64,000 nt of DNA. Source: Roseofilum halophilum BLCC-M91 (lineage in GTDB: Bacteria > Cyanobacteriota > Cyanobacteriia > Cyanobacteriales > Desertifilaceae). Positions within the stretch are counted from its first letter, which is position 1. Each line of letters starts with the position of its first letter. The translations under genes were made by a program, and so were the position numbers. Positions 6,967-18,592 of the stretch are shown piece after piece. The DNA is taken from NCBI RefSeq assembly GCF_030068445.1, contig NZ_JAQPOK010000150.1, positions 1 to 64,000 on the forward strand, given 5' to 3'. The notes beneath the pieces were generated by a model. The model saw only the letters and a list, made by a program, of their open reading frames with translations. It searched no databases and was not told the origin of the DNA.

Positions 6967-7411
6967 AGATCCTCACGCAAGATTACTAAAAGATTTACTT
7001 TTCGTCTAATTCTAACAGCAATGAGTTTACATGAGATAGAAAACAGGGCATGAAGACAGAGGGAAGGAGCATATAAGCTTCACTAGGAGGGGCTTTCATC
7101 GGAAGTAGGAAGAGCAAAGATCCTCGGCTACAGTTTGAGGTTGTTTTAGAGAGCGGCGGCTGGAGCTAGAGAGCCAGATGCTCCCACACCGAAACATCTC
7201 AGGTTTTTCCCCTCTCGTCCACAGCAGAAAACACAATTTTATAACAAACACATCAGGGAAAGTCCCATCCGATGGACTCTCTACTGTCCACTCTCAGCTA
7301 TCAACGGTACACTAAGAAGAGTGACCCAAGAGAACCCGTACTATCCTATAGAAGTCGATTCTCAAATCAACCGTTAATCTATTGGGCGATCGCACCACCG
7401 GATCTCACGCT
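6967..7411. other. Intergenic region between psbX and ftsH
   Basis: A 445-bp gap between divergent genes. It should hold the promoters of both psbX (minus) and ftsH (plus). I see no convincing RNA gene, hairpin or repeat. Two G-rich AGGAGGGG/GGAAGTAGGAAGAG stretches (about 7085-7112) are not followed by a usable start codon. Confidence 0.4.
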
Positions 7412-9313
7412 ATGAACAGTTCTCAATTCAAGACTATGGCTCAAACCTTCAAACGCAAAGGAATGTCCCTGGGCGCTACCTTAGCCCTGAGTAGTTCCCT
7501 GCTGTTCACTTGGAGTCTCTTAAATCGTCCAGTCCAGGCTCAGTCAAACAGCTTGAGTTATACCCAATTGTTGGAAAAAATTGAAGCGGGAGAAGTCAAG
7601 CACGTCGAAATTGACCCCACCAAAAACCGCGCTCAAGTGAAGTTAGAGGGATCGGAGACCGAGCAAGAAGTGGTCATTTTTGAGCGCAATCCCGAATTGA
7701 TTGAAGCCCTGAAAGCGAATAAAGTGGGCTTTGGGGAGCAGGCAAGCGCCGATAATCGCATGGTGTTCAGTAGTGTGGCCAACTTGTTGTTAATCCTGTT
7801 GGTGGTGATTGGGTTAATGATGATTATTAAGCGCTCTTCCCAGTCGGCTGGTAATGCGTTAAATTTTGGCAAGTCTAAGGCTAAATTCCAGATGGAGGCC
7901 AAAACTGGAGTGGTGTTTAACGATGTGGCTGGAGTGGAGGAAGCGAAGGAAGAGTTGCAAGAGGTGGTGACCTTCTTGAAACAACCGGATCGGTTTACGG
8001 CTATTGGGGCGAAAATCCCTAGAGGTGTGTTATTAGTAGGGCCGCCGGGAACCGGGAAAACCCTGATGGCCAAGGCGATCGCCGGTGAAGCAGGCGTTCC
8101 CTTTTTCAGCATCTCCGGTTCCGAGTTTGTGGAGATGTTTGTCGGTGTGGGGGCTTCGCGGGTTCGGGACTTGTTTAAGAAAGCCAAAGAAAACGCCCCC
8201 TGTTTAGTGTTTATCGATGAAATTGATGCCGTCGGTCGTCAACGGGGTACAGGTATTGGTGGCGGTAATGACGAACGGGAACAAACCCTGAACCAATTGT
8301 TGACGGAAATGGATGGGTTTGAAGGCAACAGTGGCATTATTGTGATTGCCGCCACCAACCGCCCCGATGTGCTGGATCAGGCCCTGTTGCGTCCCGGTCG
8401 CTTTGACCGTCAGGTGATGGTGGATTTGCCCACCTATAAGGGCCGGTTGGGGATTTTAGAGGTTCATGCTCGCGATAAGAAAGTGGGGGCGGATGTATCT
8501 TTAGAGGCGATCGCCCAACGCACCCCTGGCTTCTCTGGCGCAGATTTAGCCAACCTGCTCAATGAAGCCGCCATTCTCACCGCTAGACGGCGCAAGGAAG
8601 CCATTACTCCCCTAGAAGTCAATGATGCGATCGATCGCATCACCATCGGCCTCACCCTCAACCCCCTGCTCGACAGCAAAAAAAAGCGCCTCATTGCCTA
8701 CCATGAAACCGGCCATGCTCTCTTAATGACCCTACTCAAAAAGTCTGACCCCCTGAATAAAGTCACCATTATTCCCCGTTCCGGAGGCATTGGCGGCTTT
8801 GCCCAGCAAGTCTTCAATGAAGACATGATTGACAGTGGATTATATAGTCGCGCCTGGTTGCTCAATCAAATTACCATTTTGCTCGGTGGAAGAGCCGCCG
8901 AAGAAGAAGTTTTTGGCTACGCCGAAGTCACCAAAGGAGCCAGTGGCGATATTGAAAGTGTGGCTAAACTTGCTAGGGAAATGGTCACCCGCTATGGCAT
9001 GTCCGATCTGGGCCCCCTAGCCCTCGAAAGTGGCAATAGTGAAGTCTTTTTAGGCCGAGATTTAATGACTCGTTCCGAATATTCGGAGGAAGTTGCCACC
9101 CAAATCGATCGCCACGTGCGGGAAATTGCTGTCCGTTGCCACGAACAAGCTCGTAAACTGCTGCGGGAAAATCGCCCCTTAATGGATAAACTGGTGGATG
9201 TTTTATTAGACCAGGAAACTATCGAGGGCGACCAATTCCGAAAAATTGTCACCGACTACCAGAACAGTCAACCCAGCTCACCCGTTGATTTGGTCAAAGC
9301 TGGGAGCGCTTAA
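7412..9313 (+). CDS. ftsH: ATP-dependent zinc metalloprotease FtsH
   Basis: A membrane AAA+ protease for quality control of thylakoid or plasma membrane proteins. From ATG 7412 (MNSSQF) there are about 633 residues. An N-terminal hydrophobic segment (about 20-40, signal-anchor like, ending RPVQAQS) is followed by a lumenal or periplasmic domain and a second helix (about 125-145, [15 protein letters not shown]). Then come Walker A GPPGTGKT (about 210), Walker [14 protein letters not shown], the second region of homology with [18 protein letters not shown], and the zinc site HETGH (about 430). Among the four cyanobacterial FtsH types the N-terminus looks closest to the FtsH1/FtsH4 kind, but this is uncertain. 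A TTG at 7382 would add ten residues. Confidence 0.93.
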
Positions 9314-9320
9314 TTCTATA

Positions 9321-9490
9321 GTAGGGGCAGGTTTGAAACCTGCCCCTACACAAGAAGAGGAAACCTGCCCCTACACAAGAAGAGGAAACCTGCCCCTACA
9401 CAAGAAGAGGAAACCTGCCCCTACACAAGAAGAGGAAACCTGCCCCTACACAAGAAGAGGAAACCTGCCCCTACACAAGAAGAGGAAACC
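9321..9490. repeat. 25-bp tandem repeat array with leading palindrome
   Basis: Six exact head-to-tail copies of a 25-bp unit (AAACCTGCCCCTACACAAGA followed by AGAGG) fill 9336-9485, then a partial AAACC. The array starts inside a perfect inverted repeat with 14-bp arms (9321-9334 and 9336-9349, one-base loop) and is followed by AGGTTTCT. The unit is not a multiple of three and has no spacers, so it is neither coding nor CRISPR. It lies between ftsH and a convergent methyltransferase gene. Confidence 0.95.
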
Positions 9491-9514
9491 AGGTTTCTGC
9501 ATCCGGCAGGTGGA

Positions 9515-10255
9515 CTATTTTTCCTGTTTTTTCACCGATAATAGCAGGCTATGGCCGGTCTTTTCGCGAACATACCACAAGAGTTTGAGGCTGCTTAGAT
9601 CGAAATCTTCAGCCAGCGTGGACATCACCTCCAAATACAGGGGAAAGCGATCGTTAAATACCCGGTAAAAGAAGACAAACTCTCCCGAAGGCACTAAGAC
9701 CTTACCCACTTGTGCGATCGCCCGAAATACGAGATCGTCATTCCTGAGAATCCCCATCTCGTAAGAACTCGGATCGATGGGGCGATCGATAGATCGACTG
9801 GGAAAAGGCATAAAGACCAGATCGTAGGAATTCTCAGCTTCCCCTGCACACAAATCTTGGACTTTTACCCGATCCTGTTCCCGCATCAGAGCATTATTTT
9901 GCAAGGGTAGAACATTAGGGTGAAGGTCAGAAAAAACCACTTGAGAGCTGTCCTTAACAATACAGCACAACCCAATCACCCCACATCCACATCCGAGATC
10001 GAGAACTTTTTTACCCTTGACTAAAACATCTTCATTGAGGATACCACTCATGAACGCCTGGGCTGCAATGCCACCATAGGGGTTGAACACACCTTGGGGA
10101 ACGAGAACATCAAAAATGGGTTCATCTCGCAGTAATATCGCGATCTCCCGATCTTTGGACGATAGCTCTTGGTGGAATTCCAGATAGTTTTGGCGATCGT
10201 ATTTCAGGGTTTCGTCTTGTTTGAGAACAATTTTTACATCTTCTTGTTTAATCAT
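9515..10255 (-). CDS. Class I SAM-dependent methyltransferase (MTS/small-domain like)
   Basis: From ATG 10255 (MIKQEDVKIV), about 246 residues. The SAM motif is VLDLGCGCGVIGLCCIV, followed by acidic loop FSDLHPN and VKVQDLCAGE. The fold resembles the small methyltransferase (MTS) domain of RsmC/PrmC, but the catalytic NPPY/F position reads FMPFPSRS, so an N-methyltransferase of rRNA or protein glutamine is not assured. A TTG at 10300 gives a longer frame beginning two bases after the stop of the upstream methyltransferase gene (10303). The two genes look translationally coupled and co-transcribed. The substrate is unknown. Confidence 0.75.
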   Translation of the reverse strand: MIKQEDVKIVLKQDETLKYDRQNYLEFHQELSSKDREIAILLRDEPIFDVLVPQGVFNPYGGIAAQAFMSGILNEDVLVKGKKVLDLGCGCGVIGLCCIVKDSSQVVFSDLHPNVLPLQNNALMREQDRVKVQDLCAGEAENSYDLVFMPFPSRSIDRPIDPSSYEMGILRNDDLVFRAIAQVGKVLVPSGEFVFFYRVFNDRFPLYLEVMSTLAEDFDLSSLKLLWYVREKTGHSLLLSVKKQEK

Positions 10256-10302
10256 CTTCCTTGCCTCTGAATCTAGATTAATTAGTTTTACAGGTATCAA
10301 GC

Positions 10303-11103
10303 TTAAAGTTTTTTACATAAATAAAACCACCAAGCAATTTCTCCATTCACCACTGCCTGGCTCGTTTTTTGGTAACCTAGGCTGCGTTCGGCATCCCCTT
10401 GAAAGCGCTTCGATTGAATATCATAAAACTTTTTCATGTGTTGGCGTAAATCCAGCGAATCTAAAACTTCAAAACCCGCACGTCTTAAAGCATCCGCATA
10501 GGATTCTGGTGAAATAAAGCGACTCACATGCAACCGATTATAGACATAGTTTTGGGTGTCTTCAGTCGGACGATCGTGGAGGCTTACCAAGTCATCAAAG
10601 AGGAATATACCTTCTGGAGCTAAGAGTCGATGCGCTTCTTCTAAGACTAACTCTCGCTCGTGAATGTGGAGCAAGGTTCCTTGACTCCAGATATGGGTAA
10701 ATTCTCCATTAGAAAACGGTAAACTCGTGGCTGAAGCTTTGACAAAAGAGAGTTTTAATTGAGTAAACTTTTCCGCTTGCTTTTGGGCATTATCCACATG
10801 AATTTGACTGATATCGATGCCTACTACTTCGCACTGGGTTTGGTTGGCTAAATAGACTGCGGTGTGACCATTACCGCAACCAATATCCAGCACGCGAGAA
10901 TCGGCATTAATGCCACTTTTGCTCAACATATATTCGTTCCAACGGTTGCTGGCTCGAAATAGAGCTTCTTCCTCGTCAGGAACGTTTAAATCATCAAAGT
11001 ATCCCCAGTGTTTACTTCCGTCCGGGTTCCAAGGAATTTGATACTGAATTTCCACAGTATTATAGTAGTGTTCGGTCTCAGCATCAGTAAATTTTTTGCT
11101 CAT
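10303..11103 (-). CDS. Class I SAM-dependent methyltransferase (Methyltransf_11 type)
   Basis: A 266-residue enzyme with motif I VLDIGCGNGHTAVYLA, acidic motif VVGIDISQIHVDNA and post-motifs SFVKASATSLPFSNGEFTHIWS and LLAPEGIFLFDD, typical of small-molecule methyltransferases. The N-terminal YYNTVEIQYQ..SKHWGYFDD segment resembles tocopherol/amine/natural-product methyltransferases. It is first of a two-gene minus-strand unit with the 9515-10255 methyltransferase, and is divergent from the membrane protein at 11169. I cannot name the substrate. The nearby radical SAM genes make a shared secondary pathway possible but unproven. Confidence 0.8.
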   Translation of the reverse strand: MSKKFTDAETEHYYNTVEIQYQIPWNPDGSKHWGYFDDLNVPDEEEALFRASNRWNEYMLSKSGINADSRVLDIGCGNGHTAVYLANQTQCEVVGIDISQIHVDNAQKQAEKFTQLKLSFVKASATSLPFSNGEFTHIWSQGTLLHIHERELVLEEAHRLLAPEGIFLFDDLVSLHDRPTEDTQNYVYNRLHVSRFISPESYADALRRAGFEVLDSLDLRQHMKKFYDIQSKRFQGDAERSLGYQKTSQAVVNGEIAWWFYLCKKL

Positions 11104-11168
11104 TCTTGAAAATGGGTTAAACTCGGTAGATCAAGATTGAACAAGTTTAGCAGAGTTGAGTGAAATTT

Positions 11169-11807
11169 ATGCAATTTCATGTTTGGGGAGTTGTGAATGT
11201 AATCCTATTCCTTTTTACGGGGTATGGATTGTTTCATCAATTCAAAATTCTGCGCGATCGCCGCCTCATTGGACTGCAAGGCTATACCCGTCACTTGTCC
11301 GCCCAACAGTTTATCACCAGCTTTGCCGCTTTTTTCTCGATCTTCTTTTTAGGGTTAACCCGTCCTGAGTTAAATCATTATCTGGTGTGGACAAGGTTGA
11401 GCGCTTTATTACTGCTGATCGGCATACTTTGGGAAATCTACTTAGACCGCCACTCCCTTCCCAGTCTGATGAGTGTGATTTTAACGGCGATCGCCTTAAC
11501 AATCGGCTTAGTTTTGATTCTCTTAAGACCCTTACCCTTTGCCATCAACATTAGCGCCGATCTTCTGACCGTAATCATGGCCTTTATTCTCGCTTACGGA
11601 ACCATACATCAAATTCGCTTACTGACAACCGGCCAAAACATTCCCCTTTCCCAAACCCTACTCTTTAGCCTGTTGGTCAAAGATTGTGCCACCCTAGGAT
11701 TTGGCTTCACCATGCCCCTTGAAGTCGCTTGGTCTTTACTCTTTCTTAATGGTTCGAGTTTGATTCTGAAAAGTTATTTGTTAATCAAGCTGATGCGCGT
11801 TTCCTAG
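11169..11807 (+). CDS. Polytopic membrane protein of unknown function
   Basis: About 212 residues and six or seven hydrophobic helices. It is not recognised as a named family. Two segments look alike: GYGLFHQFKILRDRRLIG..HLSAQQFITSF near the N-terminus and AYGTIHQIRLLTTGQNIPLSQTLLFSL in the second half. Both have a helix followed by a Gln, basic residues and a Leu-Ser turn. This spacing recalls PQ-loop/SWEET-type transporters, but the Pro-Gln pair itself is missing. GTG 11160 is an alternative start three codons upstream. It is divergent from the methyltransferase pair and precedes the radical SAM genes by 300 bp. Confidence 0.6.
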   Translation: MQFHVWGVVNVILFLFTGYGLFHQFKILRDRRLIGLQGYTRHLSAQQFITSFAAFFSIFFLGLTRPELNHYLVWTRLSALLLLIGILWEIYLDRHSLPSLMSVILTAIALTIGLVLILLRPLPFAINISADLLTVIMAFILAYGTIHQIRLLTTGQNIPLSQTLLFSLLVKDCATLGFGFTMPLEVAWSLLFLNGSSLILKSYLLIKLMRVS

Positions 11808-12107
11808 ACATAATCCCGTTAAATTGTTAAGAAATATCACGAATTTGTAATATTGTAATATTTCTATATGGGATACAGAATGGATGGTTTTTAATCTAAA
11901 TTTGCCCTTGACAAGCTTGGTGGTCATCAATTAGAATCTCCCTATTATTCTATGAAAACAGAAAAGTTCTATCACTTCTCAAGTAAACAAATAGGTCAAG
12001 CTCGATAGAGCTTTTCAGACTCTGGGTGTTGTTTCTAGAGGGACAACAGCTTGATACAGACCGAATACAAGAGTTCAAACAAATCAATAACAGATAGGGG
12101 AGAAAGA
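11808..12107. other. Intergenic leader before the radical SAM pair
   Basis: A 300-bp AT-rich gap. An imperfect dyad of AGAAATA (11829-11835) with TATTTCT (about 11858-11864) encloses GTAATATTGTAATATTT, itself near-palindromic. It could be an operator or part of a terminator for the preceding membrane-protein gene. No RNA gene was recognised. Confidence 0.35.
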
Positions 12108-13664
12108 ATGACCATTGCCACAGATTGTCCTGCAATTGGGCTAGTAGAATTGCCTCAGTTAAAGCTATCCGATCCCGATGGCAACGACTTTTATTCCTTG
12201 CGGAAGTTTGAACCGATTATCAGCAAACAAGTATTAATCTCTAATCTGCAAGCGGGTGGATTTCAAACAAAATTCATTAATCTCCGAGATGGGGATTATA
12301 TCGAAAATTACGGGAAAGTGACGTGGAGAGGCATTGAACTGACCAAGAATTATGTGGGTCTGGATATCAAAAGTGTCGATCCAGAAAGTTGTGAGGTTTG
12401 GTGTATTACGGTTAACTTCACCCTCTACCGGGAAATTGCCCTGATGCTCCTTCAGCACTTGGCCAGTAAAGGCAAGCCCGTGGTTGTGGGGGGTTCCGAT
12501 CCCTTTGCTGCTCCCGAAGTTTATCTGGGCAATGGTGCGGCAGTGGTGGTTAAAGATAAATCAGGATCTGCCAATTGGCCCCTGTTCAATTATCTGTTAG
12601 GAAAGGGTTCAAAAGAAGAACTAAGCGGTGTGATTTTAGCCGATGGCACGGAATATCGCAGAAATAAGACTCCTCTGCATCCCGAAGAATGGCCCCTGCC
12701 CTCGGTAGAGGTGGCTAGAGAATGTCTGGGAACCCAATATTGGATGGACCCGTTCCCCGAAGAATTAAAACCCATTGGTGCTATATTCCCAGATATGGGT
12801 TGCGATCGCCACTGCGACTTCTGCCAAACCCCCACCTACGGCACGGGATATCGCCGGATGTCTCCTAAACGGGTGATGGAATGGCTCGACGTACTCTGTG
12901 AAGCGGGCGCAAAATCAGTCGTTAGCCTATCCGATCAATTTCTGGGACGGACGATTTTCCCTGAAGGGCGACAAGAAATTCTAGAGATTATGCAGGGAGT
13001 GCGCGATCGCAATTTAGCCGTTCTCTGGCCCAACGGTCTGGAACTGAGGAAAATGACCCTCGGACGGGGACACAGTGGCAAAAAAGAAGACTTAACCCCT
13101 GACGAAGAACTGATTCACGCCATCTATGATTGGGATGGTCGCAAAGGAACCCTCGCGGGTTACCTTCCTGCGGAACGACCGATTTTTGGCCGAGAATCCT
13201 ATGCCAAATTAGTCCCCTGGCAACAACATAAGCGTATTGTGCGAACCATTGTCGGAACGGGCGTTCCCATGATTAGCTATGGCGTAATTATTGGCTTGCC
13301 CGACGACGATAACGAAGCCTTATTGAGACTCGAAGAAGCCCTTTGGGAAGTCTATGAGGAAGTGAAAGCCATTAATCCATCGATCATCTTCCAAATCAGT
13401 CCCTTTGTCATTTCTCCCATATTGGGAACTCCGCAGGGCGAGATTATTCGTAAATCGGGTTTGCTGCAATTTGATGACCCAGCCCTGTTTGCCGGATTCT
13501 GGACAGCGAGCGTCAACACCAAATATCTGAGTTACGAGGAAGTGTCCGATTGGCAGTTCCGTCTGGCTCGCGTTGGCGACTCGAAAAACCTGCAAATTCC
13601 TCAACGATTCAGAACCTTGCCGGATGAAGCCAAGAATGGTGAACAGGCTGAAGTTGCAGCCTAG
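12108..13664 (+). CDS. Radical SAM protein with B12-binding-like N-terminus (copy 1)
   Basis: A 518-residue radical SAM enzyme. The 4Fe-4S site is CDRHCDFC (Cys 232, 236, 239; CxxxCxxC), followed by the barrel. The N-terminal about 190 residues look like a Rossmann-type cobalamin-binding region (KPVVVGGSDPFAAPEVYLGNGAAVVVKDKSG) as in B12-dependent radical SAM enzymes. The DxHxxG histidine loop of base-off cobalamin binding is not visible. Start ATG 12108 follows AGGGGAGA with good spacing; the frame upstream to 12051 lacks support. It is 84 bp ahead of a paralogue (13749-15287), and the two probably form one operon. The reaction is unknown. Confidence 0.82.
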   Translation: MTIATDCPAIGLVELPQLKLSDPDGNDFYSLRKFEPIISKQVLISNLQAGGFQTKFINLRDGDYIENYGKVTWRGIELTKNYVGLDIKSVDPESCEVWCITVNFTLYREIALMLLQHLASKGKPVVVGGSDPFAAPEVYLGNGAAVVVKDKSGSANWPLFNYLLGKGSKEELSGVILADGTEYRRNKTPLHPEEWPLPSVEVARECLGTQYWMDPFPEELKPIGAIFPDMGCDRHCDFCQTPTYGTGYRRMSPKRVMEWLDVLCEAGAKSVVSLSDQFLGRTIFPEGRQEILEIMQGVRDRNLAVLWPNGLELRKMTLGRGHSGKKEDLTPDEELIHAIYDWDGRKGTLAGYLPAERPIFGRESYAKLVPWQQHKRIVRTIVGTGVPMISYGVIIGLPDDDNEALLRLEEALWEVYEEVKAINPSIIFQISPFVISPILGTPQGEIIRKSGLLQFDDPALFAGFWTASVNTKYLSYEEVSDWQFRLARVGDSKNLQIPQRFRTLPDEAKNGEQAEVAA

Positions 13665-13748
13665 TCCGGGCAAGAAATTCAGGTGGGAAGGAAAAATATC
13701 TGAAAACACCGAGACATAAAGTCAAAACCAAATCAGGAGATCGAAAAA

Positions 13749-15287
13749 ATGACAAAAGCTCCCTCAATTGGATTGGTTGAAGTCCCAGAAGTGGATCTGC
13801 GCGCACCGAACGGAGTCAGTTGGCACAACTTGTCCCAGGGAATTCCGATGATTAGCAAGCAGATTCTCATCTCTCAATTGCGATCGGGTGGGTTTGACGC
13901 TCAACTGGTGAATCTCCGAGATGGAGATGAGGAAGAAGAATACGACCAAGTTGAATGGGGAGGTCAAACCCTTAAAAAAATCCTGGTCGGTAATAAAATA
14001 TCTAGCGTTGACCCAGATGCTTATGATGCCTGGGGAGTGACGATTAACTTTACCCGCCAGTGCGAATCAGCTTGTAAGACGATCGAGCATTTGGCAAGTA
14101 CAGGTAAGCCGGTAGTCGTCGGAGGTTCCGATGCGATTGGCAGACCGGATATCTATTTGCAAGCTGGTGCTACAGCCATTGTTAAAGATAAATCCGGGGG
14201 AGGGAATTGGGCAATATTCGATCGCCTGCTGGGAAGGCCAGAACGACAAAAGCTATCAGGCGTACTATTTCCTGATGGCACGGAATACCGAAAAGGTTTT
14301 CCTGGCCTGCATCCAGAAGACTGGCCTCTGCCATCTTTAGACCTGGTTAAGGCGTGTTTTGGAGACAAGCACACCTATAGCGATATGCCACTGCTCCCTC
14401 ATGGTTCGGTGTTCGTCGATATGGGTTGCGATCGCAAGTGCGACTTTTGCCAGACTCCAAGTTATCGTTTGGGATATCTGCGGATGTCGCCCGAAAAGTC
14501 CCTTAAATGGTTCGAGATCCAAAAAGAAGCAGGCGCTCGTGGGGTTCAAAGCTACTCAGATCAATTTCTGGGGCGGATCTTGTTTGAAGGCGGGCGACAA
14601 GAAATTCTGGATATTGTCAATGGACTCAGGGAGCGAGAAATCCCTATTGCCTGGTCAAATGGTTTGGAGCTAAAAAAGGCCACTTTGGGGCGAGCTATCC
14701 GTCCCGATGGAGACCTCACTCCTGATGAAGAACTGATACAAGCACTTTGGGGCTGGGATGGCAAGGTTGGCTGCTTCCACTCCTATATCCCTGCGGAACG
14801 ACCGTTAGTCGGCCGGGAGTCATATCACAAGCTGATGCCTTGGAAAGAACACTGCAACATCATACGAGCGATCGCCAGGACTGGAGTTCCTCGGATTGGT
14901 TATGGTGTGATTGTTGGGCTACCTGATGATGACCATGATAGTTTGCTCTTCCTGGAGGAGGCGATATTTAGGCTCTATCAAGACGTTAAAGCCATCAATC
15001 CCGAAATAGATTTTAAGATCAGGCCGGTTTCTATTAGTCCTTTCGCTGGCACTCCCCAAGACCAACAAATTCGGGATTTGGGACTGCTGGCCTTTGAAGA
15101 TCCAGCTATTTTAGGGGGATTTTGGACTCCCTGCGCTAATACCAAGTATATGAGCTATCTAGAGGTTTCAGAGTGGCAAATTCGTCTGATGAACCTTGCA
15201 GATCAGTACCATGTGTTTAACCTTACTCGCGAGAATGTCGAGAGGGAACATGCAAATTCCTCGCCGATTCAGAACCTTGCTCGATAA
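13749..15287 (+). CDS. Radical SAM protein, tandem paralogue (copy 2), tail out of frame
   Basis: A 512-residue paralogue of the preceding gene. It has cluster motif CDRKCDFC (Cys 227, 231, 234) and the same N-terminal SKQ(V/I)LIS..GGF..NLRDGD and VVGGSDA..GATAIVKDKSG features. ATG 13749 has AGGAGA seven bases upstream. The last 12-13 residues (ANSSPIQNLAR) do not match copy 1. In another frame, bases 15250-15324 code MQIPRRFRTLLDKAKKTQE followed by TAAVA, which matches the copy 1 tail LQIPQRFRTLPDEAKNGEQ at protein and DNA level. A small frameshift just upstream of 15250 therefore changed the C-terminus. The catalytic core is intact. Confidence 0.82.
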   Translation: MTKAPSIGLVEVPEVDLRAPNGVSWHNLSQGIPMISKQILISQLRSGGFDAQLVNLRDGDEEEEYDQVEWGGQTLKKILVGNKISSVDPDAYDAWGVTINFTRQCESACKTIEHLASTGKPVVVGGSDAIGRPDIYLQAGATAIVKDKSGGGNWAIFDRLLGRPERQKLSGVLFPDGTEYRKGFPGLHPEDWPLPSLDLVKACFGDKHTYSDMPLLPHGSVFVDMGCDRKCDFCQTPSYRLGYLRMSPEKSLKWFEIQKEAGARGVQSYSDQFLGRILFEGGRQEILDIVNGLREREIPIAWSNGLELKKATLGRAIRPDGDLTPDEELIQALWGWDGKVGCFHSYIPAERPLVGRESYHKLMPWKEHCNIIRAIARTGVPRIGYGVIVGLPDDDHDSLLFLEEAIFRLYQDVKAINPEIDFKIRPVSISPFAGTPQDQQIRDLGLLAFEDPAILGGFWTPCANTKYMSYLEVSEWQIRLMNLADQYHVFNLTRENVEREHANSSPIQNLAR

Positions 15288-15363
15288 AGCCAAAAAGACC
15301 CAAGAAACGGCGGCGGTAGCATAGCTAATATAACAGTCGATCGCTACTTGCCTCAATTTCCTT

Positions 15364-15395
15364 ACCCGTGCGCTAATTGTACGCACGGGTTCATT
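15364..15395. terminator. Bidirectional rho-independent terminator
   Basis: A perfect 9-bp stem, ACCCGTGCG (15364-15372) and CGCACGGGT (15382-15390), with a 9-base loop, is followed by TCATTTTT. It separates the radical SAM pair (plus) from the convergent aminomutase gene ending at 15404. It can serve the radical SAM operon, and less clearly the opposite strand. Confidence 0.85.
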
Positions 15396-15403
15396 TTTCT
15401 AGA

Positions 15404-16738
15404 TTAGACCTTCAGCGCCTTTCGGGTCAAAATCTCCTCAAGCTGACTTTCGTAGAAGAATTTATCCTCACCAAAAGCAGGTTTCAGGTCATTGAGCCAA
15501 GTGGCATCCGGATCGAAACGGGCAAAAAACGGTCGCTTGCACCAGTCCGGTTCGCGAGCTTGCAAAAACGACAGCACAAACACCTTCTCTCCGGCAATTT
15601 CGGCCACACCATCAATGACAACTTTCCCAGGCAAAGCCGACATCACCGGGCCCCTCGCTGTGCGTCCCAACCCGGACACTTGCTGTATGGCTTGTTGATA
15701 AATTTCCCAAGCCTTCACCAAAGGAATCCGAAAATACTCCTTCGCTCCAGTTTGCCGCTCCACAAACATATAGTAAGGAATACAACCTGCATGGACTTGC
15801 ATATTCCACATTTTCGCCCAAGTCTCTGCGGAATCATTGATATGACGAAGGACAGGCGCTTGGGTGCGAATTTGGGCCCCGGTGGAGCGGATGCGTCGGA
15901 TGGCTTCTTCGGCCACTGGAGTATCTAACTCTTGCCAATGCTCGTAGTGAGCCATAATGGCCAAATGCTTGCCTTGTTGGACGACTTTTTCAAATAGACG
16001 TAACAAGTCATCTGCATCGTCATCGGTGACATAACGATAGGGCCAGTAGGCGATCGATTTTGTGCCAATGCGAATGGTTTGAATATGGTCAAATTCTGGG
16101 GTCAGTAAGGGTTCAATATACAGAGCCAACTGGCGAGTTTTCATCGTCATCGGATCGCCACCCGTCAGCAATACATCGGTGATTCCCTGATGATGTTGCA
16201 GATAGTCTTGAAAGATACCCGACTCACGAGTGGCAAACCTTAAATCATCGAGGCCGACAAACTGAGGCCAGCGAAAACAGAAGGTACAGTAAGCATAGCA
16301 GGTTTGGCCGGCTGTGGGAAAAATTAAAACGGTTTGGTCATATTTATGCTGAATGCCAGGAACCGGTTCATCGTTAAAGGTGGGGACATTATACTGCTTC
16401 TGTCCGGCTGGATGGGGATTGAGTCCTCGCCGAATTTCGTTAGCAACCGCTTTGATCTCTGCTTTGGGAGCATTATTGCTTAAGAGATCCATCAGGCGAT
16501 CGCGCTCTTGAGTCGGTAACATTTCTGGATGAGGGAACGTTAAGCGAAAGATCGGATCATCGGGAATATTCTTCCAGTCGATCAGCTCTTCGACCACATA
16601 GTTATTTGTGCGGAAAGGCAAAACCTTCGCCACAGCTTTCATCCCTAGAATATCCTTCTCTTGCAGATCGGTTGACTGCAAAAGAGAATCGAGATCCTTA
16701 TCCTGGTAAAAGCGAATCGTTTTGGTTTTAATTTTCAT
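15404..16738 (-). CDS. KamA family radical SAM aminomutase (lysine 2,3-aminomutase-like)
   Basis: A 444-residue PLP- and SAM-dependent aminomutase-like protein. The cluster motif is CYAYCTFC (Cys 147, 151, 154). The barrel holds LLTGGDPMTM and IRIGTKSIAYWPYR. The C-terminal MSALPGKVVIDG has a lysine where KamA binds PLP. Lysine 2,3-aminomutase makes beta-lysine; related enzymes act on glutamate, and EpmB modifies EF-P. No beta-lysine acetyltransferase or EF-P gene is adjacent, so the substrate is open. The gene is convergent with the radical SAM pair and separated from it by a terminator, so co-regulation is not implied. Confidence 0.8.
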   Translation of the reverse strand: MKIKTKTIRFYQDKDLDSLLQSTDLQEKDILGMKAVAKVLPFRTNNYVVEELIDWKNIPDDPIFRLTFPHPEMLPTQERDRLMDLLSNNAPKAEIKAVANEIRRGLNPHPAGQKQYNVPTFNDEPVPGIQHKYDQTVLIFPTAGQTCYAYCTFCFRWPQFVGLDDLRFATRESGIFQDYLQHHQGITDVLLTGGDPMTMKTRQLALYIEPLLTPEFDHIQTIRIGTKSIAYWPYRYVTDDDADDLLRLFEKVVQQGKHLAIMAHYEHWQELDTPVAEEAIRRIRSTGAQIRTQAPVLRHINDSAETWAKMWNMQVHAGCIPYYMFVERQTGAKEYFRIPLVKAWEIYQQAIQQVSGLGRTARGPVMSALPGKVVIDGVAEIAGEKVFVLSFLQAREPDWCKRPFFARFDPDATWLNDLKPAFGEDKFFYESQLEEILTRKALKV

Positions 16739-17328
16739 GCTTGATTAAACTCATTAAAACTCAAAAGGTCAATTGATCTTAGGCATATCTTAGGCATAAA
16801 CGATAGCAATACACAGAATTCCATACAGAACCCATGATGCCTATGGTTTAATTCACAATTAATTTAATCCTGTGTTCAGGGGGTGTAATTACTTATTCTT
16901 AAGGAAATCCAAGACACTCAACCATCGTCATGAGTCATCCCAAACTATTATTGATTATTAAATTATCATATTCTTGACAATTTATCTCTCTTCTCTGGCG
17001 ATCGGTGGATTGAACTTAGCTCTATAGCAAACCTAAATGAGTTATGTAATGGCTGCCCCTCATCCCCCAGCCCCTTCTCCCGCAGGCGCTGCCCTGCTTG
17101 CCCTGAGCGTAGCCGAAGGGAGCGAAGTCGAAGGGAGAAGGGGAGCAGAAGTAGGGATTGAGGGAGAGGGCATTTCCAGTTGCACAACTCATTGAGACTA
17201 GCTATATACAAAACAACGGACGCTTCTGGTTCAGAAACGTCCTGCGGGTCGTTGAAATACAAAGGGCAAATATTTAGTGATGTCGATGGTTTTTATCTAT
17301 AGGGTCGTATAGATGATGTCTTGCCCTA
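16739..17328. other. 590-bp non-coding region
   Basis: This region has the aminomutase promoter (minus strand) at its left and a MITE-like element at 17023-17206. A tandem TCTTAGGCATA duplication lies at about 16778-16798. The open frames here lack ribosome binding sites and fall in repeats. Confidence 0.5.
17023..17206. mobile_element. MITE-like element (about 184 bp)
   Basis: The ends form imperfect terminal inverted repeats: TATAGCAAACCTAAATGAGTT (17023-17043, 21 bases) against the complement of 17186-17206 (TATAGCTAGTC then TCAATGAGTT). The interior has a second dyad, GCCCCTTCTCCC with GGGAGAAGGGGAGC, and a CCTGAGCGTAGCCGAAGGG segment that recurs at about 37480. The right end also occurs at 140-186. 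There is no ORF, so it is probably non-autonomous. Confidence 0.7.
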
Positions 17329-17529
17329 CTAGCTCATGGATGAACCACTGCGATCGTAAGCGTCACTAGCTCCACTAACGGGTTTCCCTTGGATGTTATT
17401 CCAGTAGTCACCAGTTTGATCGAGTCCAACTTCGGCTGCGGAGCGGTTGAGCATGGACTGTTGACGGTTTTTCACGAGGTGATGGTGGCGGTTCATTAAA
17501 GCGCGGGCTTGATCGTTAGTAGATAACAT
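17329..17529 (-). CDS. Small conserved-looking hypothetical protein (66 aa)
   Basis: A hydrophilic 66-residue protein beginning MLSTNDQARALMNRHHHLVKN, with a composition typical of a folded or nucleic-acid-associated small protein (basic N-terminal half, Gly/Ser-rich end). No family is recognised with confidence. A ribosome binding site GGAG sits eight bases before ATG 17529, which makes it a real gene. It stands alone between a MITE-like element and a divergent hydrolase gene. An N-terminal HHH run and conserved-looking NRSAAEVGLD could be checked for homologues. Confidence 0.65.
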   Translation of the reverse strand: MLSTNDQARALMNRHHHLVKNRQQSMLNRSAAEVGLDQTGDYWNNIQGKPVSGASDAYDRSGSSMS

Positions 17530-17731
17530 AATTGTTTCTCCAGTTGTTTAATTAAGTGTTTTTTTCCTTACAGTTCTAACTATAGCAAACTTTTTTGTAG
17601 TCACTGCTACAGAATGGGCAATTTTAACAAAAGTTAATGATTGTACTCAGGAAGCAGGGACTGTTCAGGGAGGTAAAAACCACGGTATGCTAACCCCGTC
17701 CCAGTGAAACAAAACGGAGCTAAGGAAAAGC

Positions 17732-18580
17732 GTGTCTATAGAGGAGAAGCAAATCGAAGTCGGTTCCCTAGAGTGGTTTTATCGAGAAGCGCAACCGATG
17801 CAAGCGACTGAGAAACCTCCGGTTTTATTGCTCCATGGGTTGCTTTCCCAAAGCTATAGTTGGCGGGAGGTTATGCCGTCTTTAGCGGAAAAAGGGTTTT
17901 GGGCGATCGCCCCCGACTGGATCGGTGCAGGGAAATCATCACTGCCAGAAAAACGGGACTTTGCCTATACTCCTGAAGCGTTTGCTCAAGCTTTAGGAGA
18001 CCTCATTGATAGCCTAGAATTGGAGCAAGTTTCCCTAGTGCTGCAAGGCTACACCAGTGTTCCTGGACTCCTCTATGCTCTGCAAAATGGCGATCGCATC
18101 CATCGCCTTAGCCTCATCAACATGCCCCTGAGCGCCAGTGCCAAATTACCCTGGAAAATCCAGCAATTTACCCTACCCCTAGCCGGAGAAATGATGACCC
18201 AAGATCCCCTGATTGTCGATCGCACCCTAGAAGGGGGATCGCCCTATCAAGTCGATGACAAAGACCTCAATGTTTATCGTCGTCCCTTTCTGGAAACTTC
18301 GGCTGCTGGACGCGCTCTGCTGGCAACCTTGCGAAATCTGAACCTGAAATCGAGTTTAGCCGAAATTAGCAGCACCCTCCCCCAATGGTCAAAACCCCTG
18401 CAAGTCATTTGGGGAGAAAACGATCCCTGGTTGTTACAATCGAGTGCTAAAGAAGCGATTTCTAGGGTATCCCAAGCCGAATTTATTGCCTTAGAAGAAG
18501 TTGGCCATTATGCTCAAGAAGACTGGCCGGAAAAAGTGTGCGAGGCTCTGATTCCATTTCTACGCAGACAAAGTGACTAG
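17732..18580 (+). CDS. Alpha/beta hydrolase fold protein, nucleophile not evident
   Basis: A 282-residue alpha/beta hydrolase. It has the oxyanion segment LLLHGLLSQSYSW, then APDWIGAGKS, the acid loop WGENDPW (about 230) and the C-terminal histidine EEVGHYAQED (about 260). The nucleophile elbow, which should read GxSxG or xDWG, reads LVLQGYTSVPG, so no Ser or Asp stands at the usual place. Either it uses an unusual residue or it is a non-hydrolytic member; some photosynthetic-lineage homologues are thought to share a QGY form. GTG 17732 follows AAGGAAA. It lies 12 bp upstream of the RuvC-like gene, probably one operon. Confidence 0.85.
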   Translation: MSIEEKQIEVGSLEWFYREAQPMQATEKPPVLLLHGLLSQSYSWREVMPSLAEKGFWAIAPDWIGAGKSSLPEKRDFAYTPEAFAQALGDLIDSLELEQVSLVLQGYTSVPGLLYALQNGDRIHRLSLINMPLSASAKLPWKIQQFTLPLAGEMMTQDPLIVDRTLEGGSPYQVDDKDLNVYRRPFLETSAAGRALLATLRNLNLKSSLAEISSTLPQWSKPLQVIWGENDPWLLQSSAKEAISRVSQAEFIALEEVGHYAQEDWPEKVCEALIPFLRRQSD

Positions 18581-18592
18581 AGTTGAAAGTTG

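Follow-up and report, generated by a model that had tools for sequence, protein, structure and literature searches.

A conserved, block-like gene cassette with two B12-fold radical SAM paralogues in the cyanobacterium Roseofilum halophilum and its possible role in betaine biosynthesis

In a stretch of 64,000 nucleotides from Roseofilum halophilum BLCC-M91 (contig NZ_JAQPOK010000150.1, positions 1 to 64,000; hereafter the window), two radical S-adenosylmethionine (SAM) genes lie head to tail on the forward strand. An inspection of these letters made without database searches (the sequence-only reading) had described them as tandem paralogues with B12-binding-like N-termini, possibly part of an uncharacterised pathway. 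Gene 1 (12108-13664) and gene 2 (13749-15287) start with ATG, are separated by 84 bp, and encode proteins of 518 and 512 amino acids (aa) that are 52% identical; for gene 1, an alternative TTG start upstream, at 12051, is present in the list of open reading frames (ORFs). Each gene has its own ribosome-binding-like site, the purine-rich GGGGAGAAAGA ahead of 12108 and AGGAGATCGAAAAA ahead of 13749. Both proteins contain the GGSD and KDKSG motifs, and the cysteines of the CxxxCxxC cluster are at 232/236/239 in protein 1 and 227/231/234 in protein 2. All of this agrees with what had been described. The genome of the window (4.85 Mb in 169 contigs, around 95% complete) was searched for a third copy of the family, and none was found beyond these two.

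The neighbours are also those originally listed: two proteins with a methyltransferase fold, a membrane protein (called polytopic from its sequence) and a convergent KamA-like enzyme. The methyltransferase c7 (9515-10255, reverse strand) has an MTS fold (Pfam MTS, 32.1 bits). Its listed ORF extends to 10300, and we placed the start from homologues that begin with MI[KR]QEDV; the searches with c7 used 9518-10225, i.e., without the first residues. The methyltransferase c10 (10303-11103, reverse strand) is related to sarcosine/dimethylglycine N-methyltransferases, its best NCBIfam match being NF041675 with 104.7 bits, but it misses the cut-off of 550 bits and other methyltransferase families score close behind. 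The polytopic membrane protein c27 (11160-11807, forward strand) matches no family above cut-off, has orthologues in only two of the loci read (L078 and L087), and is an optional member of the cluster. Finally, c11 (15404-16738, reverse strand) is a KamA-like homologue of radical SAM aminomutases (TIGR00238, 142.5 bits for a cut-off of 199.2; PDB 2a5h, 72.7 bits).

The two radical SAM proteins fit the superfamily, since the CxxxCxxC motif is invariant in all 68 family sequences of the tree described below, and they reach no curated family. Pfam Radical_SAM, the sole Pfam entry at E 1, scores 28.4 and 27.1 bits, just under its cut-off of 29.5. The top NCBIfam match of both is TIGR04013 (B12-binding/radical SAM, MJ_1487), with 23.4 and 16.7 bits (cut-off 251). 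All NCBIfam matches, including the weak ones to B12-type families, are far under their cut-offs, the Pfam B12-binding domain gives no match at E 1, and a sequence search of the PDB returned nothing convincing. Several specific identities were rejected. HpnR and HpnJ score 20.9 and 12.8 bits with protein 1 (cut-offs 650 and 577.6) and are not listed for protein 2; the ladderane-type TIGR04072, PhpK and ApyD are likewise far below cut-off for protein 1 and, at E 1, unlisted for protein 2. Membership of the SPASM or Twitch families, which the sequence-only reading had raised, is ruled out: Cys203, 227, 231 and 234 are the only invariant cysteines (68 of 68 sequences, members longer than 400 aa), which leaves no room for the auxiliary clusters, and SPASM gives no match at E 1. 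A role in anti-phage defence was also discarded, because PADLOC has no match to the radical SAM proteins and returns only the generic mad2 (c7, c10) and MTase_II (c10). Among the open-access papers that our searches listed, none names this family or the cassette in its title or at the start of its abstract. The proteins hence form a radical SAM family that has no curated model among those searched, and that lies, as described below, in a conserved and block-like neighbourhood.

We compared AlphaFold models of the two proteins with known structures. The models have mean pLDDT values of 73.5 and 73.1, they were built from alignments of only 8 sequences, and the stretch with the cluster cysteines has a pLDDT below 50 in both. 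The best fold match of both is AprD4 (PDB 6fd2), with Z 24.9 and a root-mean-square deviation of 3.6 over 411 residues for the first, and Z 25.1 and 3.4 over 416 residues for the second. Foldseek also puts AprD4 first, level with OxsB (E 1.6e-11 and 1.9e-11). OxsB, MgmA, CysS and TsrM come next for both models, nearly full length, with best rows between Z 18.5 and 22.6. The N-terminal domain of protein 2 matches the corrinoid-binding protein 1y80 (Z 10.1, 24% identity), and only the second model gives an alignment to Mmp10, a weak one (Z 11.1). The proposal that the N-terminal region is B12-binding-like thus holds at the level of the predicted fold: the paralogues would share with OxsB, MgmA, CysS and TsrM a B12-binding-like domain followed by a radical SAM barrel, yet they reach no curated family of such enzymes. 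The DxHxxG loop, whose absence had been remarked upon, is a trait of mutases and methionine synthase, and its absence is therefore no argument against a B12-type radical SAM enzyme. AprD4 itself, their best match, carries a B12-like domain without cobalamin, so the paralogues may or may not depend on the cofactor. The models suggest that the fold is shared with AprD4 over nearly the whole chain, but identity in the structural alignment is 14-16%, the family profile gives no match to 6fd2 at E 10, and there are no aminoglycoside genes among the scanned neighbours. The predicted fold leans towards AprD4, yet a shared fold shows no function.

A search across the phylum identified the family in 21 of 386 genomes, all from the order of the window, and a profile search within that order found it in 56 of 388 (copy numbers are lower bounds, as scoring covered only the top three candidates of each genome). 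A search of genome contigs with one protein gave four loci only. There was no match to protein 2 in plasmid and phage collections, and no relative in viral contigs with the profile. We inferred a tree of 68 sequences by a quick method, leaving out ORFs of up to 400 aa, L087, and L047 (a duplicate of L094). It contains subfamily I-A (15 sequences, including protein 1), subfamily I-B (4 sequences, including protein 2), a pair associated with a cluster of the type that makes ribosomally synthesised and post-translationally modified peptides (RiPPs), the six copies of genome G480, a long-branched pair, and the large group IV (39 sequences). Among the fragments, those of G551 (L086) and G629 (L087) are nearest to I-A. 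L062, L113 and L114 fall closest to group IV, whose counts leave them out, and L115 lies nearest the RiPP pair and I-B. The description of the window genes as tandem paralogues stands inasmuch as they are adjacent and related, but they belong to separate subfamilies with different neighbours elsewhere, and hence are not simply a pair. The largest array is in G480 (L083, contig C129, 6457-16241), where six diverged radical SAM paralogues in tandem adjoin an amine oxidase, an Orn/Lys/Arg-decarboxylase-like protein, DUF3326 and a betaine-binding (OpuAC) protein.

Subfamily I-A is carried by ten of the sampled genomes (the window genome G000, G320, G438, G452, G481, G486, G528 and G613, plus fragments in G551 and G629). 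In eight of them, i.e., all but G481 and G551, the set of c7, c10 and the KamA-like gene is complete, and these eight are spread over four families (f1, f6, f10 and f17). The KamA-like gene is at most 5.2 kb from a radical SAM gene in seven of the eight, in varying orders and orientations, and is on a separate short contig in G613. In G629 the cluster is degenerate: c7, c10 and the radical SAM genes are interrupted by stops. The c10 orthologues (57-66% identity) are confined to these eight among the 388 genomes, the next relatives being 43-51% identical. A third methyltransferase is found in G452 and G486. The membrane protein is a neighbour in the window, as had been described, but it is the least conserved one (three of the eight genomes). 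We sought c7 in 36 chosen genomes and found it in 11, namely these eight and also G504, G405 and G651. The KamA-like gene, at 61% identity or more, occurs in 22 of the 388 genomes (in four as fragments only). As a partner it is constant for clusters of the window's type (8 of 8), but 13 of the 22 genomes lack the radical SAM family. The sequence-only reading drew its functional link from proximity; the conservation of the neighbourhood across related genomes takes the link further than that.

Two comparisons between close relatives reveal how the cassette comes and goes. The genomes G486 (L081) and G504 (L129), of one related genus, have flanks that are 93-97% identical, but G504 cleanly lacks a block of 7.45 kb that in G486 holds three radical SAM genes, c10 and the third methyltransferase. 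The adjacent c7 of G504 has a stop at codon 192, and its KamA-like gene is intact. This deletion links c7 and c10 to the radical SAM genes, with the KamA-like gene standing a little apart. In the genus of the window, the radical SAM family, the KamA-like gene and c10 are all absent from the five sampled congeners; the site can be read across in two of them, its flanks being on different contigs in the other three. Congener G213 (L150) lacks window positions 9316-17209 and has 259 bp instead, of which 34 bp match 17210-17243 (blastn), so that its counterparts of 7382-9315 and 17329-18585 (91% and 90% identical) are direct neighbours. Congener G414 (L151, 3324-7406) has, at the same site, scraps of the cassette matching 11091-11270 (95%) and 9520-9606 (85%), along with three other ORFs. 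One of these encodes a methyltransferase, another a methyltransferase with an N-terminal match to the Pfam cysteine dioxygenase (24.0 bits, cut-off 23), and the third a MurL-like protein that is 26-29% identical to the MurL-like proteins beside group IV. Small metabolic cassettes are thus swapped at this site, and a sister lineage either once had the present one there or traded it with the lineage of the window. A perfect tandem array of a 25-bp unit in 6.2 copies (9335-9490) sits at the island's left edge, just 3' of an ftsH-like gene.

Other features of the locus concern its transcription and history. A promoter-like TTGACA-N18-TAGAAT lies 5' of gene 1 (11908-11937, forward strand) with 11 of 12 matches, and is a weak candidate, since the region has 13 such sites where 10.9 are expected. 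Between the convergent genes, a candidate terminator identified by eye (15365-15389) consists of a perfect 8-bp inverted repeat with a loop of 9, followed by a T-rich stretch; the terminator scan, which accepts loops of 3-8, did not return it. No structured RNA from Rfam reaches the gathering threshold within the window. At the end of gene 2, 15247-15296 (forward strand) is 86% identical to 13587-13636 and is an out-of-frame relic of the 3' end of a I-A gene: in another frame it reads NMQIPRRFRTLLDKAKK, and the final residues of protein 2 come from this relic, read out of frame. Recombination within the array has apparently overwritten part of an older I-A copy.

The partners give some clues to the chemistry. 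The KamA-like protein can be aligned with lysine 2,3-aminomutase (LAM; 2a5h), residues past 350 being placed by equal spacing. The cluster cysteines (Cys147/151/154), Arg156 (the carboxylate-binding Arg134 of LAM) and Lys372 (Lys337 of LAM, which binds pyridoxal phosphate, PLP) are invariant in 17 of 17 full-length relatives. The two residues that hold the lysine side chain in LAM, Asp293 and Asp330, are replaced: the first by Arg328 in all 17, the second (position 365) by Val in 14, Leu in 2 and Ile in 1. Six NCBIfam models match the protein, each with a score under its cut-off. By analogy with glutamate aminomutase, our guess is that it may act on an acidic substrate such as glutamate. For the relatives of c10 at 43-51% identity, four loci of 32 matches were read, and three of the four have a PanD-like aspartate decarboxylase beside the c10 relative. 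PanD makes beta-alanine, and the kin of c10 would then plausibly methylate beta-amino acids, the class of product that an aminomutase would supply. The PanD-like proteins of L142 and L144 pass the NCBIfam cut-off, and that of L141, whose ORF is short at the start, only the one of Pfam. L142 and L144 also have a BBOX/TauD-like dioxygenase (BBOX, gamma-butyrobetaine dioxygenase), and L141, L142 and L144 are candidate loci for beta-alanine betaine. In L141 and L144, the sarcosine/dimethylglycine-type methyltransferase has tandem domains. Known beta-amino acid solutes include, according to passages of PMC1224877, beta-glutamate and N-acetyl-beta-lysine, the latter made via a lysine aminomutase.

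Elsewhere in the family, many neighbours are linked to betaines. We analysed 39 sequences of group IV from 38 genomes (without G626 and fragments), over up to about 9 kb on each side, grouping the neighbours by blastp clustering. A gene similar to EgtB or EgtD is nearby in 15 of the 38 genomes (EgtB-like in 14, EgtD-like in 12), betaine ABC transporters (with two domain orders) in 11, a DUF427 protein in 12 and MurL-like proteins in 9; at least 17 show none of the neighbour clusters. Since EgtD is nearly universal (355 of 388 genomes), a test of whether the family depends on EgtD was uninformative, and only the adjacency is informative; we estimate that it would arise under random placement in well under 1% of cases per genome. 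In L034, the EgtB-like protein passes the cut-off of TIGR04344 (OvoA N-terminal) and not that of EgtB, and the EgtD-like protein passes TIGR03438. The permease-OpuAC protein of L034 was considered as an ergothioneine-specific transporter, but this is not supported, because nicotine/acetylcholine-sensor and choline/betaine binders score up to 239 bits and EgtUC up to 165. BBOX-like genes are near members of the family in L078, L085 and L092, below the NCBIfam cut-off where scanned, and in L092 (G609, 7003-13044) one I-B gene is flanked by two of them. The EgtB and EgtD genes are thus near group IV members, with no such gene in the window; the window genome holds two EgtD-like matches elsewhere. 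One subfamily differs, in that its members in L024 and L025 (with the same locus in Desmonostoc, L046) lie in a RiPP-like cluster with YcaO, a ThcOx-type oxidase, a subtilase and a second, HemN-like radical SAM protein.

On top of the observed gene content, predicted fold, co-conservation and block gain and loss, we infer a pathway, including its reactions, its substrates and the order of its steps. The reading we prefer, tentatively and at somewhat less than an even chance, is that these genes form a small cassette in the window for the synthesis and tailoring of an N-methylated amino acid, i.e., a betaine. The KamA-like PLP/radical SAM enzyme would shift the alpha-amino group of an amino acid to the beta position; its substrate would differ from lysine and might be acidic, like glutamate. 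Then c10, probably with c7, would methylate this amino group, giving a beta-amino acid betaine. The two B12-fold radical SAM enzymes would cleave SAM, remove a hydrogen from the betaine's carbon skeleton or from that of its precursor, and modify this molecule, either by an AprD4-like elimination without cobalamin or by a cobalamin-assisted C-methylation or rearrangement. The membrane protein, where present, may handle the product. The sequence-only interpretation is, overall, partly supported: neither of the two outcomes that would have overturned it, a clear match to a characterised enzyme family or a neighbourhood that is not conserved in related genomes, was obtained.

A number of observations weigh against this proposal. 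Two of the ten I-A genomes lack the partners: G481, whose only gene of the set is an intact I-A copy, and G551, whose I-A gene is truncated. Beyond the eight cluster genomes, c7 occurs without radical SAM genes in G405 (intact, beside the KamA-like gene) and G651, and its distribution is that of 36 chosen genomes. The presence of the KamA-like gene in 13 genomes that lack the family implies that its function is not tied to it. The parallel with glutamate aminomutase, which has a Lys at the position of Asp293, is one for which we found no paper. The c10 relative of L143 has no PanD and is accompanied by class III aminotransferases. The BBOX-like genes are outside the window, and beside the cassette in the eight genomes, whose neighbours were partly scanned, there is no member of the betaine-transporter or Egt neighbour groups described above. 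Furthermore, a passage of PMC1224877 mentions early nuclear magnetic resonance evidence that excluded an aminomutase route to beta-glutamate in methanogens.

Three other explanations deserve attention. The KamA-like enzyme may be a bystander with its own function, in which case the cassette proper would consist of c7, c10 and the radical SAM genes and act on some substrate. We regard this as unlikely, at about one chance in four: the gene remains intact in G504 after the loss of the block and the decay of c7, and it lives without the family in the 13 genomes mentioned above, but it is present in each of the eight genomes having I-A, c7 and c10, within 5.2 kb in seven of them and in varied gene orders. 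Just as improbable, in our view, is that the radical SAM proteins are cobalamin-dependent C-methyltransferases or ring-forming enzymes acting on a peptide, a lipid or another natural product, which the methyltransferases would decorate as well, the betaines being incidental. The weak NCBIfam matches to B12-radical SAM families (e.g., TIGR04013 and HpnR), the rank of OxsB, MgmA, CysS and TsrM right behind AprD4, with OxsB level in Foldseek, and the RiPP-type cluster of one subfamily all speak for such a role. However, most of the partners that recur with the other subfamilies have a link to betaines, and we noticed no precursor peptide, nonribosomal peptide synthetase or polyketide synthase among the recurrent partners of the window's type, where no dedicated search for them was made. 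The least probable of the three is that cobalamin-free, AprD4-like lyases remove water, ammonia or trimethylamine from betaines in the breakdown or salvage of osmolytes, which would suit the top fold match of both paralogues, the betaine transporters near group IV, and, in relatives, a CoA-transferase III protein and a cupin matching Pfam DMSP_lyase at or just under its cut-off, but sits poorly with methyltransferases and an aminomutase that look anabolic, with EgtB and EgtD being biosynthetic, and with the lack of an AprD3-like reductase among the six window genes scanned (passages of PMC5461906 describe AprD4 as a radical SAM diol dehydratase partnered by the reductase AprD3).

Returning to betaine biosynthesis, the neighbourhoods suggest a broader idea that we hold as rather doubtful, if a little less so than these alternatives: an unnamed cyanobacterial family of B12-fold radical SAM proteins would use radical chemistry to turn quaternary-ammonium amino acids into new betaines, with some subfamilies acting on hercynine or ergothioneine and that of the window on a beta-amino acid betaine. 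To our knowledge, such protective betaines are made by methyltransferases and oxygenases. Orphan betaines detected by mass spectrometry would then originate from genes of this family. Excerpts of Baran et al. 2013 (PMC3826126) report hercynine in 9 of 10 cyanobacterial strains together with unidentified betaines, including a pair differing by one sulfur atom in Leptolyngbya sp. PCC 7376 only. Members of the family beside genes that make or move betaines would be candidate genes for structurally unassigned cyanobacterial betaines, and radical chemistry would be added to this class of protective metabolites. If the fold match to AprD4 can be trusted, the family might also reveal how a B12-binding domain functions in the absence of B12.

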